This document shows, in pieces, positions 1,957-54,934 of a DNA stretch of 64,000 bases. Numbering within the stretch: position 1 is the stretch's first letter; each line of letters begins with the position of its first letter. The stretch is from Demequina capsici (GTDB taxonomy: Bacteria > Actinomycetota > Actinomycetes > Actinomycetales > Demequinaceae): contig NZ_CP134880.1 of assembly GCF_032102965.1 (NCBI RefSeq), forward strand, positions 310,001-374,000, in the 5' to 3' direction. The notes beneath the pieces are model-generated. The model was not told where the DNA came from. It ran no database searches and worked only from the letters and a program-made list of their open reading frames with translations. Made by a program: the position numbers and the translations under genes.

Positions 1957-2615
1957 CTCCCGCTGGGGGAGGCGGGCGCAGCGTTCGAGCGGTGCGTGAG
2001 CGCGTGGAGCGTGAAGCGGTTCGCCTCGACCGTGGGCAGATCGCTGCGCACGCCGTCGACCCGCAGGCCGTCGAGGAACAGCATGATGACGCGTCGCAGC
2101 GCGATGCGCTCGTCGCCCACGGGCCGTCCCACCAGGCCGCCGATCGCGTAGACGGCCAGGACGATGTCCGACAGCGTCACGTCGTCGCGGAGCTTGCCCT
2201 CGGCGCGGGCCCCCTGGACCACGGTGGTCAGTGCGCCGATCGTCTTGGCTGCGGGCATGTATTCGGGGTCCAGGTCGTACATGAGGCGCATCACGGTGCG
2301 CTGGCCTGGCGAGTCCGCCACCGACAGCGCGGTGATCTCCACGATCCCCGCGAAACGCTCCCACGCGGTCGGTGCGTCCGGAAGCTCGGCGACGTGCTCC
2401 ATCAGGTTCTCGACGGCGCGGTCGTACATGGCGCGGATCAGCGAGTCATGGTCAGGGAAGTGCCGGTAGGCGGTGCCGACTCCCATCCCGGTCGCGGCAG
2501 CGAGCTCGCTCACGGAGATGTCTCCGTCCCGGGAGCCGAGGATGTCGAAGGCCGCCGTCAGAAGGCGCTCCCGGTTCGCGATGGCGTCCCTGCGGGGTCG
2601 TCGTGTGCGTGACAT
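1953..2615 (-). CDS. TetR family transcriptional regulator
   Basis: 220-residue repressor with a canonical N-terminal TetR helix-turn-helix (about residues 12-55: RLLTAAFDILG ... SVSELAAATGMGVGTAYRHFPD) and a divergent ligand-binding C-terminal domain. The target is not evident, since neither neighbour is an efflux or catabolic gene. A perfect 6-3-6 inverted repeat lies 6 bp upstream of the start (2621-2635), so autorepression is likely. The gene converges on the hypothetical gene with a 4-bp overlap. Confidence 0.93.
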   Translation of the reverse strand: MSRTRRPRRDAIANRERLLTAAFDILGSRDGDISVSELAAATGMGVGTAYRHFPDHDSLIRAMYDRAVENLMEHVAELPDAPTAWERFAGIVEITALSVADSPGQRTVMRLMYDLDPEYMPAAKTIGALTTVVQGARAEGKLRDDVTLSDIVLAVYAIGGLVGRPVGDERIALRRVIMLFLDGLRVDGVRSDLPTVEANRFTLHALTHRSNAAPASPSGS

Positions 2616-2620
2616 CGCTT

Positions 2621-2635
2621 CAGTCTAGGAGACTG
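2621..2635. promoter_or_regulatory. Probable TetR autoregulatory operator
   Basis: CAGTCT-AGG-AGACTG is a perfect 15-bp dyad only 6 bp upstream of the tetR ATG. The position and symmetry are as expected for a dimeric TetR repressor; binding is inferred. Confidence 0.55.
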
Positions 2636-2750
2636 CTTCGCGACCGCGTGACACCCCCGTGTTCGCCCTGCTTTGTCATGGTTCGTCCCGCGCGTCGGAT
2701 GTTCGCGATCCGCCGAACCGCACCCGTCTGGCGTGGGTCGGGGTTACAGT

Positions 2751-2846
2751 TGAGTAGACGTCGGACCGTGGTAGCCCCGGGCTCCAACACCTGCCGCCAC
2801 GAGCGGCCATTGCGCCGACTGGCGCTCCCGGTCCGACGTCTTCTCA
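2751..2846. ncRNA. Candidate structured RNA or palindromic element (4-way junction)
   Basis: TGAGTAGACGTCGGACCG (2751-2768) pairs with CGGTCCGACGTCTTCTCA (2829-2846), 17 of 18 positions, enclosing three small perfect hairpins. They are AGCC/GGCT (2773-2783), GCCGC/GCGGC (2793-2807) and GCGCC/GGCGC (2812-2825). The result is a cloverleaf-like four-way junction on either strand. It is in the 315-bp gap between tetR and the mutT1-like gene, with no protein gene overlapping. It is not a tRNA: there is no T-loop or anticodon arm. It could be an untranslated regulatory RNA, a complex terminator or a small palindromic mobile repeat. Confidence 0.4.
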
Positions 2847-2930
2847 TGTCCCGGCTCCCGGCTCCCGGCGCTCTCGCGCGATCCGAGCGACGACCGCGGC
2901 TCCTGTGGGCGACAGCCACGAGCTTGGTCG

Positions 2931-3905
2931 CTACAGGGGAACCTGCAGTCCGTGCGTCTCGACGGCGATGATGCGCGGACCGGACGACGTGGGCTCCACG
3001 TGAGCGACCAGCACACCGCCTGCGGGAAGGTACGGGTTGGATCGAGGCAGCGCACCGCGCGTGTACCAGCGGGTGGCGGAGCGGACCATCTCGATGACGG
3101 TGGGAAGCGTGGGCCGGTGCACGCTGACGACGCGTGAGACGTCCTTGTCGAGCAGCTTCTGCAGCAGGACCGCGGTGGCGAGCGGACGTTCGGCGTGCCC
3201 CGGCTCGGTGAGCTGGTCGTAGGTCTTCACGGTGATGCCTGACGCCTGGGCGAACGGTCGCACCGTGGCCATGCATCGTTCCGCGGGGGACGAGGTGATG
3301 CGCGCGACCCCGAACGCCGCGAACAGCGGCACGAGCTGGCGGGCACGCTCCTGGCCGCGCTTGGTGATGGGCCGGGTCAGGTCGCTGCGACGCCACGCCT
3401 TGCGACGTCGCGCGCGTGCATGCCTGGCGATGATGAAGGCCCTCGTGTCGAGACGCTCGTTTTCGTAGGCGCTCACCAGTGCCTCGAGCGGCCGAAGGTC
3501 GTCCTTGAAGGTGATCCGCGAGTGCGCCTCGTCGATCGTGAGCCACGCTGTCCTGTCGATCTCCGCCTTGTCCACCGGAGAGACGGGCGGCCGTGCGGCG
3601 ACGGCATGGCTGTCCTTCGCGGCGACGCGTGCCGCCCAGTACTTCACGACCTTCGTCTTGTCGCCGGCGATCGGGTAGCGGAGGGTGGGAAGCGGCTGTC
3701 CGAGCACGACCTGCTTGCCAGTCTCCTCAGCCACCTCGCGGATGGCACAGGCGGGCAGCGTCTCGCCTGGATCGAGCTTCCCCTTGGGCCACGACCAGTC
3801 GTCGTACCTGGGGCGATGCACGGCGAGCACCTGGAGCTCGTCCTTGCGTACGCGCCACACCAGGGCACCAGCGGCGACGACGGTGCCAGGCGGGTACCGC
3901 TTCAC
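2931..3905 (-). CDS. MutT1-like NUDIX hydrolase with C-terminal histidine phosphatase domain
   Basis: 324 residues. The N-terminal NUDIX domain has a full Nudix box (G42-x5-E48-x7-REVAEETG), and the C-terminal half resembles the histidine-phosphatase (PGAM/SixA) fold beginning near [11 protein letters not shown]. This two-domain order matches mycobacterial MutT1, an 8-oxo-(d)GTP/diadenosine polyphosphate hydrolase that sanitises the nucleotide pool. The phosphatase motif is RHA rather than RHG, as in SixA-like members. The GTG at 3905 overlaps the ppk stop (GTGA, 4 nt), so it is translationally coupled to ppk. The same ppk-mutT1 adjacency occurs in mycobacteria. Confidence 0.88.
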
Positions 3906-6142
3906 TTGCCGCTCCGCCTCCGTTGGGGCTGCCGTTCGATGTACAACGACTGCAGGTCCTTGAGCGGGCGGCCCTCGGCGTCGGCCCTCATGGCCGTCCA
4001 CGAGCCGTCGGAGTCGAGCTCCCACGCGCCCACCTCGGCGGACATCGCGAGCTCCACGTTCTCGAGGAGCATGGCGACCTGGGTGGGGTCGACGATCGTG
4101 ACGAGCGCCTCGATGCGGCGATCGAGGTTGCGGTGCATCAGGTCGGCTGAGCCGATGAAGACCTCGGGCTCGCCCCCGCCGCCGAACGCGTAGATGCGGG
4201 AGTGCTCGAGGAAGCGGCCGAGGATGGACCTCACGCGGATGTTCTCGCTCAGGCCGTCGACGCCAGGGCGCAGCGCGCAGATGCCTCGGATCACCAGGTC
4301 CACCTTCACGCCCGCCTGCGAGGCGCGGTAGAGGGCGTCGATCACCTTCTCGTCCACCAGGGAGTTGACCTTGATCTGCACCCAGGCGTCCTCGCCGTCG
4401 GCCGCGCGCACCGCCTCGGCGTCGACGCGGTCGATCAGCCCCTGGCGGATGCCCGTGGGCGCGACGATCAGGCGGCGGAACTTGGCCTTCGGCGCGTAGC
4501 CGGAGAGCTGGTTGAACAGCTTGGTGAGGTCGGAGCCGACGTCGGGGTCCTTGGTGAGCAGGCCGTAGTCCTCGTAGAGACGCGCGGTGCGGGGGTGGTA
4601 GTTGCCGGTGCCGATGTGGCTGTACCGCTGCAGCCCGTCGTCCTCCTGGCGGATCACAAGCGAGAGCTTGCAGTGCGTCTTGAGGCCGACGAGCCCGTAC
4701 ACCACGTGCACGCCCGCCTGCTCGAGCTTGCGGGCCCACGAGATGTTCCGCTGCTCGTCGAACCGCGCCTTGATCTCCACGAGAGCCAGCACCTGCTTGC
4801 CGTTGCGCGCCGCCTCGATGAGCGCGTCGACGATGGGCGAGTCGCCAGAGGTGCGGTACAGCGTCTGCTTGATGGCCAGCACCTTGGGGTCGTTCGCCGC
4901 CTGCGCGAGGAACGCCTGCACCGACGTGGAGAACGAGTCGTACGGGTGGTGCAGCAGCACGTCGCCGCGGGTGATGGCGGCGAAGATGTCCATCTGCTGG
5001 GCGGTCTCGACCGGCGCGAGCTTGTGGTGCGTGGTGGGTCGGAAGGCCGGGAACTGGAGCTTGGGGCGGTCCAGGTCGGCGATGACGTTGAGGCCGGTGA
5101 GGTCGAGCGGCGCCGGGAGGTGGAACACGTCCATCTCGGTGATGCCCAGCTCGCGCACGAGCAGCTCGCGGATCTTGGGAGGCAGGTTCTCGGCGACCTC
5201 GAGCCTGACGGCGGGGCCGAACCGGCGGCGCAGCAGCTCGCGCTCCATGGCCTTGAGGAGGTTCTCGGCGTCGTCCTCCTCGACCTCCATGTCCTCGTTG
5301 CGGGTGACGCGGAACGTGTAGTGGTTCACCACGTCCATGCCGGGGAACAGGTAGTCGAGGTGCGCGGCGATGACGTCCTCGAGCGTGACGAAGCTGCGAG
5401 GCTCGTCGGGCAGCGCTGAGGCGTCGACCAGTTGGCTGGGCCGGCCCTTCGTGTCGACCGACAGGAAGCGGGGCAGGGTCTCGGGGACCTTGACCCTGGC
5501 GAAGTACTCCTTCTCCGAGTCGGGGTCGCGGATCTCGACCGCCAGGTTGAGCGAGAGGCCGGAGATGTAGGGGAACGGGTGCGCCGGGTCCACTGCGAGC
5601 GGCGTCAGCACGGGGAAGATGTCCGAGCGGAAGAGCTTGCGCAGGCGGTTCTGCTCGTCGTCGCCCAGCTCGTCGTAGCGCACCAGGTGGATGCCCTCAC
5701 GGGCGAGCTCCGGCAGCACGCTGTCCTCGAACACCACGGCGTGCTCGTCCATGAGCTGGTGCGCGCGGTCCGTGAGCGCCTCGACCAGGCGGGTGGGGCT
5801 CATGCCGGTGGCCGACGGGACGGCGAAGCCTGCGGCGATGCGGCGCTTGAGGCCGGCCACGCGGACCATGAAGAACTCGTCCAGGTTGGACGCGAAGATG
5901 GCAAGGAAGCGCGCCCGCTCGAGCAGCGGCGTCGCGGGGTCCTTCGCGAGCTCGAGGACGCGCTGGTTGAAGGCGAGCCAGGAGAGCTCGCGGTCCAGGT
6001 AGCGGTCGTCCGGGAGGTCGTCAGGCATGTCGTCGTCGATCATCGGCATCGTGAGCGTCTCGTCGGAGACGATCGCCACCGTGGACCCGGGATCGGGGGC
6101 GGGCTGGGGTCCGGCCTCTGTGAAGTCCATGCTGTCCGACAT
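3902..6142 (-). CDS. ppk: Polyphosphate kinase (PPK1)
   Basis: 746-residue enzyme that reversibly polymerises the ATP gamma-phosphate into polyphosphate at the membrane. The PPK1 N-terminal domain starts at [17 protein letters not shown]. The catalytic-domain motif GLKTHCKL carries the phosphorylated His, and [10 protein letters not shown] carries the second essential His. Length is normal for actinobacterial PPK1 with a short acidic N-terminal extension. Two in-frame ATGs exist: the first (6142) has GGAG only 1 nt away and the second (6130) has it 13 nt away, so the exact start is uncertain. First gene of a two-gene operon with the mutT1-like gene. Confidence 0.96.
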
Positions 6143-54858: not shown

Positions 54859-54934
54859 GCCGCCTTAGCTCAGTCGGCAGAGCGATTCACTCGTAATGAA
54901 TAGGTCAAGGGTTCGATTCCCTTAGGCGGCTCCA
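54859..54934 (+). tRNA. tRNA-Thr (CGT)
   Basis: 76 nt with acceptor stem GCCGCCT (54859-54865)/AGGCGGC (54924-54930), discriminator T and encoded CCA. The anticodon loop CTCGTAA gives CGT, reading ACG (Thr). D-arm GCTCAGTCGGCAGAGC and T-arm AAGGGTTCGATTCCCTT fit. Its 3' half is the left end of a 44-bp repeat, indicating use as an integration site. Confidence 0.97.
54890..54933 (+). repeat. Left attachment repeat, 3' half of tRNA-Thr
   Basis: 44 bases from the anticodon loop to the tRNA 3' end are repeated at 56553-56596 with 41 identities. This is the standard core size for tyrosine-recombinase attachment sites in tRNA genes. Confidence 0.85.

Follow-up and report, generated by a model that had tools for sequence, protein, structure and literature searches.

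What is the long inverted repeat that lies in the gap between tetR and mutT1 in Demequina capsici: a small RNA, a control element of a neighbouring gene or a piece of mobile DNA? The window, by which is meant the whole stretch of 64,000 nucleotides that was analysed, has an intergenic gap at 2616-2930 that is flanked by tetR (1953-2615) and by mutT1, both on the minus strand, with mutT1 ending at 2931 and ppk lying beyond it. A sequence-only reading had correctly given this gene-free gap as 315 bp, and had offered an undescribed small RNA, a riboregulator or a palindromic mobile unit to explain what it holds. The present analysis finds a conserved RNA on the plus strand at 2757-2840, defined by BLAST, by class-wide covariance models and by covariation, with its start inferred from a -10-like box. 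That this is a real RNA of a class-wide family, read from the plus strand, is held to be almost certain. The best explanation of it, in which moderate confidence is placed, is an independently transcribed, trans-acting small RNA that is linked to a stress sigma factor and carries an invariant C-rich motif.

Fold and strand of the RNA

Folding of 2740-2860 gives a four-way junction of -63.4 kcal/mol (z = -4.70, with 0 of 200 shuffles as good), and the 18-bp stem with one mismatch that had been described is present, as 2751-2768 paired with 2829-2846 around T2755·T2842, together with the three hairpins that it was said to enclose. The minus strand folds well too (z = -4.15), therefore folding alone cannot assign the strand. 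Across 13 pairs of P1, hp2 and hp3 in 88 sequences there are 94 G·U cells against 2 A·C cells, and from this excess it follows that the RNA is the plus strand.

The stem P1 is formed by 2757-2771 and 2827-2840, as 12 pairs, a bulged U2769 and 2 more pairs, and in the long part (12 of 12 pairs) as in the inner part (2 of 2) both partners have changed with the pairing preserved. The 18-bp stem is thus conserved from 2757 onwards only, its outer six bases (2751-2756) sitting between the -10-like box and the probable start of the transcript. Inside P1 lies a short helix, P2, in which 2773-2774 co-vary with 2825-2826 (A2773-U2826 and G2774-C2825). When the two bases before CCCCGG are compared with the two after GGCG, P2 is fully paired in 71 of 88 members in seven Watson-Crick combinations, the commoner combinations being AG/CU (42), UG/CA (7), GA/UC (7), AA/UU (6) and GC/GC (4), and the rarer ones GU/AC (2) and GG/CC (2), with GG/CU in 1 more, whilst about 12 of the 17 members that depart from strict P2 fit by eye with one bulged A. 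By fixed alignment columns the two pairs are 92% and 87% paired. The support for P2 is comparative, as unconstrained folding gives it a mean pair probability of 0.22.

P2 uses bases that the sequence-only reading had placed in a hairpin with a 3-nt loop. Both outer pairs of that hairpin are found in 45 of 88 members against 71 of 88 for P2, and mutual information is 0.27 and 0.28 for its outer pairs against 1.03 and 0.93 for those of P2. The four-way junction is thus only partly right: its third hairpin is not conserved, and the outer bases of that hairpin co-vary with the two bases after hp3.

The other two hairpins are kept. In hp2 (2793-2807, GCCGC-CACGA-GCGGC) the second pair changes from C-G to U-A in 19 of 89 sequences, the three inner pairs are invariant (89/89) and the loop is YNCGA in 78 of 88. 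The outermost pair of hp3 (2813-2824, CGCC-GACU-GGCG) is CG in 78, UG in 9 and UA in 1, with a loop that is GNRA in 64 of 88 and GACU, GACA, GUCA or GUCU in the remainder. Between P2 and hp2 is the C-rich motif CCCCGGGCUCCA at 2775-2786, with CCCCGG in 88 of 88 members and CCCCGGG in 80 of 88. It is partly paired in structure predictions, and CC2775-2776 and GG2780-2781 may form a mini-hairpin of 2 bp.

Covarying stem changes had been proposed as the check on an RNA, and compensatory changes are indeed seen in the outer stem and in these two hairpins. At the level of the order (55 sequences, 53 distinct) compensatory changes are seen in 12 pairs of the outer stem, and 0 of 500 shuffles match its score. 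At the level of the class (89 sequences) P1, P2, hp2 and hp3 together have 97.0% of cells paired, against 31-43% when the partners are slid, in an alignment built with an earlier model, R2, that leans to P1, hp2 and hp3 and not to P2. Changes on both sides occur in 18 of 25 pairs and in 321 cells, against 77 in shuffles, of which 0 of 500 reach 321; the covariation score is 0.454 against 0.163 for shuffled alignments and at most 0.073 for slid controls. The core and the central pairing are nearly invariant and so lie beyond the reach of covariation. The alignment was made from the window and 86 of 139 loci, with duplicates of the same place and many near-identical loci left out. One match on the opposite strand, in L072 (E 0.0051), was kept in alignment A2, in model R3 and in the 89-sequence covariation, and was left out of the P2, G·U, promoter, loop and motif counts (the sets of 88 and 222 sequences).

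A rod-like fold proposed by RNAalifold was also considered. In it the invariant C85 has to pair with a G in column 36 of A2. In that column 9 of 88 sequences have a C and 6 a gap, while hp3 stays paired, and for this reason the rod was not accepted as the fold that is conserved. Within the 55 sequences of the order, taken by themselves, it and the junction of the sequence-only reading are equally supported (97.8% and 97.5% of cells paired). The first covariance model, R1, was built from those 55 sequences with the rod structure and was not used for searching.

Distribution across the Actinomycetes

Conservation in relatives, a further check that had been suggested, is found both near and far. 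By BLAST the RNA is present in 56 of 59 genomes (E <= 7.9e-7), a set made up of the window's own genome, 36 of the same genus and 22 from other families of the same order; the three without a BLAST match are G012, G028 and G041, the last of which was recovered by covariance model. Within the class, model R2 detects the RNA in 160 of 296 genomes (E <= 0.01), and R3 in 236 of 394 (E <= 0.001) and in 77 of 138 genera, leaving 158 of the 394 without a match; these searches and that of the phylum use stricter filters and may miss weak members. By our own count of the R3 table, 211 of the 236 genomes have one match and 25 have two or three. In a sample of the phylum 14 of 198 genomes match, all 14 within the class, and no covariance model matches outside the class at E <= 0.001. 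A weak R2 match outside the class, in G433 (E 0.02), is absent among the matches of the phylum sample.

Among the matches listed, carriers include Cellulomonas, Brevibacterium, Microbacterium, Bifidobacterium and Rothia, as well as Kocuria, Nocardioides, Modestobacter, Jiangella and Arcanobacterium. The pattern used to scan for named carriers favours sequences near the window's order, and its fractions are not class frequencies. A further 40 distant loci were picked by hand from the R2 match table.

Similar stretches also occur in two records of human faecal origin that are labelled as phage and carry no annotation, MT835541.1 (30650-30733, 84.5% identity) and MT838127.1 (61-133, 81.1%), and there is a weak match in a 754-kb Arthrobacter plasmid (NZ_CP012477.1, 215749-215826, 74.7%, E 8e-3).

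Promoter and probable link to SigR/SigH

Directly before the RNA is a -10-like box, TACAGT (2745-2750, plus strand), which has the form TAnnnT and overlaps a GTT at 2743-2745. TAnnnT is found upstream in 175 of 222 distinct members (out of 225), mostly starting 5-13 nt before the first base of the model, when the 26 nt before the model and its first 4 bases are searched. In the controls it is found in 25 of 222 downstream stretches and in 2 of 222 taken further upstream.

A second, longer element, GGAAY-N17-19-GTT, occurs in 59 of the 222 upstreams, with a spacer of 17 in 5, 18 in 45 and 19 in 9. It is found in no downstream or further upstream control and in 1 of the reversed upstreams, and 17 permuted motifs give a mean of 2.1, with one of them reaching 20, presumably because it picks up the same site one base off. 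A looser motif (N15-21) is found in 38 of 88 upstreams against 0.4 per 88 in random windows of the same loci. By group, the GGAAY-N-GTT element is present in 32 of 52 class representatives, 5 of 20 order representatives and 21 of 115 named loci among the matches listed. The usual distance of GGAAY-GTT from the start of the model is 6-14 nt; in 10 of the 59 it is 23-36 nt, and most of these 10 seem to have an additional 5' inverted repeat in between. By eye, an extra short inverted repeat seems to stand between promoter and stem in several loci, L083, L089, L092, L187 and L211, and L141, with Jiangella-like ones and Brevibacterium among them. In loci of this kind the RNA may have a 5' extension.

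In the accessible part of PMC9205884 the SigR consensus is GGAAT-N18-19-GTT, a spacing as found here. The pattern expected of a SigR/SigH-regulon promoter recurs in 59 of 222 members of the family as GGAAY-N17-19-GTT, and is absent from the window's copy. The genome of the window encodes a SigH_actino protein above cut-off. As judged from these upstream sequences, it is very probable that the RNA is linked to SigR/SigH in many lineages. In the window's genus, where the promoter resembles a primary-sigma -10, the longer element is found in 1 of 35 upstreams. At the window's own copy GTTACAGT is present but there is no GGAAY 17-19 nt before the GTT, therefore only the -10-like box is taken from it and stress control is not claimed there. 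A generic sigma-70 promoter scan and an intrinsic terminator scan of 2620-2960 found none of either; strong hairpins stand 3' of the RNA in several distant members, for example L113, L121 and L138 (by eye).

Some genomes carry more than one copy with its own element. In L128 the RNA is a tandem pair, at 4001-4092 and 4183-4274, with a GGAAY-N-GTT element before each, and in genome G134 three copies lie dispersed (L103, L104 and L105), two of them with the element.

Neighbouring genes and the probable relation to scr2952

The upstream neighbour of the RNA is a gene at 1327-1956 on the plus strand, not part of the RNA, that encodes a protein of 209 aa. A homologue is encoded within the fetched stretch of 165 of 224 loci, mostly directly upstream and on the same strand, although in some it is on the other side or strand or kilobases away. 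For this uncharacterised protein NCBIfam gives no match, PDB nothing better than E 0.23 and Pfam a single match below threshold; the protein's model is all helices (pLDDT 82.6) and has no PDB fold match at E <= 0.001. It was considered as an obligatory functional partner of the RNA and rejected as such: it is found in 89 of 296 class genomes, against 160 of 296 for the RNA, and in genome G062 it is present with no RNA detected. As the protein is rarer than the RNA, the linkage is read as shared synteny and not as dependence.

Elsewhere the surroundings are different. In four loci of the group g29 (L112, L114, L127 and L135) the RNA lies between WhiB-family and acyl-CoA carboxylase genes, each with a GGAAY-N-GTT element, and in four Streptomyces-like loci of the group g44 (L111, L113, L121 and L138) it lies between HelD and malic enzyme. 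Chaplin genes are present in four tested genomes of g44 and absent from five genomes of other groups, and g44 is taken to be Streptomyces.

The g44 interval may be one from which a small RNA has already been reported. The accessible parts of PMC8655204 and PMC7494193 give SCO2952 as HelD and SCO2951 as malic enzyme, and PMC8388888, as far as it is accessible, describes scr2952, citing Vockenhuber et al. 2011, as an expression-confirmed sRNA that over half of the Streptomyces tested have conserved. In the sources as accessible, the sRNAs scr0792, scr2101 and scr4677 show that number n is given to an sRNA between genes n-1 and n, although this naming is not uniform, with scr1625 listed beside SCO1626 and another study naming by the nearest gene. 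The number of scr2952 would then put it between SCO2951 and SCO2952, the interval that the RNA occupies in the four Streptomyces-like loci, therefore scr2952 is probably the Streptomyces member of the family, an identity by position only that we think fairly probable. It is weakened by a comparison with Rfam, where PMC8388888, in its accessible part, places scr2952: such an entry, if Rfam 15 holds one, would predict a match, and no scr2952-type match is found in six Streptomyces-like loci up to E = 5. The RNA may extend scr2952 to the class, and its class-wide spread, corrected fold and SigR-type promoter are absent from the accessible descriptions of scr2952. The suggestion of an undescribed small RNA holds as regards a conserved RNA with compensatory changes, but the word undescribed needs the caveat that the Streptomyces member may be scr2952.

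Proposed function and alternative explanations

The locus would be a gene for a stable small RNA of about 85-90 nt, transcribed from the plus strand by its own promoter. In the lineages with a SigR/SigH-type promoter the RNA would be expected to rise under thiol-oxidative stress, and it would act in trans. Its structured body would serve as a scaffold, and the likely active part would be the conserved CCCCGGGYYCCA segment with the single-stranded linker next to it. This segment could pair with G-rich translation starts of mRNAs or could bind a conserved protein. A mechanism in trans is given a little better than an even chance, and within it we lean, tentatively, towards mRNA pairing over a protein complex.

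If the RNA does not pair with mRNA it could be of a housekeeping type and work within a ribonucleoprotein, with RNA polymerase, the ribosome or a chaperone as the partner, which is thought rather unlikely. The near-invariance of the inner part (CCCCGG in all 88 members and the inner pairs of hp2 in all 89), loops that are mostly of stable types and the usual single copy would all suit such an RNA, as would the SigR regulon, which by the accessible part of PMC4921905 has ribosome-associated functions and tmRNA. HelD, a motor that recycles RNA polymerase, adjoins the RNA in Streptomyces-like loci, but this is so in 4 of 224 loci, all of them Streptomyces-like, and no constant protein companion of the RNA was found, with even its commonest neighbour in only 89 of the 296 genomes. 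In addition, RIP-seq of RNA polymerase that includes S. coelicolor names scr3559 and scr0792 in its accessible part and not the present RNA.

A cis-acting role on an adjacent gene, as terminator, attenuator or leader, and with it the riboregulator in its cis sense, is very improbable. The RNA does lie in a gene gap, and the 3' end of mutT1 adjoins it in most fetched loci of the window's genus, but it is convergent with mutT1, being on the plus strand by its G·U bias whilst mutT1 and tetR are on the minus strand. It also has a promoter-like element of its own, there is no terminator-like U-tract here, and the genes downstream of it differ between lineages.

The palindromic mobile unit (REP or MITE-like) fails on copy number: whilst a long inverted repeat in a gene gap, with similar stretches in two phage-labelled records and one plasmid, might be expected of such a unit, the many scattered copies that were to be looked for are not there. 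BLAST of the window's own genome (3,083,245 bp in one contig) finds one full copy and otherwise matches of <=28 bases, where REP or MITE elements have many copies per genome, and class-wide compensatory evolution and a position beside one gene that is kept in much of the class leave this origin a negligible chance. A degenerate tRNA or tRNA-like RNA, to which only the cloverleaf-like outline points, is hardly credible either, as the conserved pairing is unlike that of tRNA and, in keeping with the lack of tRNA features noted earlier, ARAGORN finds no tRNA or tmRNA in 2500-3100, Rfam has no RF00005 match at the RNA and its sole tRNA in the window is at 54859-54931.

Comparison with known RNAs

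That tRNA is the only Rfam match of the window at gathering scores, and no Rfam 15 family reaches its gathering threshold at the RNA in the window or in 34 loci; with relaxed thresholds the matches lie far below gathering scores. A literature search with the core letters found no paper, and no SigR link of this RNA was found in the accessible parts of the literature searched.

RybB and MicA of enterobacteria are sigma-E-dependent sRNAs. The present RNA would resemble them as a small trans-encoded RNA behind the promoter of an ECF stress sigma factor, but the sigma group and the signal are different, and it is more structured and more widely conserved. The 6C RNA of Rfam is, like the present one, a small actinomycete RNA with exposed C-rich segments. 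Each of its two stem-loops carries at least six C, according to the accessible part of PMC8388888, whereas the present RNA has one run of C4-5 next to G2-3 and a closing stem, and the Rfam scans of the window and loci gave no 6C match. ANTAR-target RNAs of actinobacteria also have two neighbouring hairpins, but in these both loops must be hexanucleotides with A1 and G4 (PMC8164766, accessible part), and the loops here are of 5 and 4 nt.

To our knowledge few structured RNAs are common to a whole bacterial class. It is possible, though the idea is a tentative one, that this RNA is an ancient, class-wide and usually single-copy effector of the thiol-oxidative stress response that arose early in the class and has recurrently come under SigR/SigH. 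Its part in that response would then be post-transcriptional or within a ribonucleoprotein, for example at the level of translation or of RNA polymerase, and in some lineages it would be under the primary sigma factor instead. Should the evidence from the promoters stand, a conserved RNA would join the SigR/SigH regulon, which the accessible sources describe as proteins and tmRNA, in organisms that range from Streptomyces-like ones to Microbacterium, Agromyces and Janibacter, and the post-transcriptional control of stress in actinomycetes, which is poorly known, would become testable.
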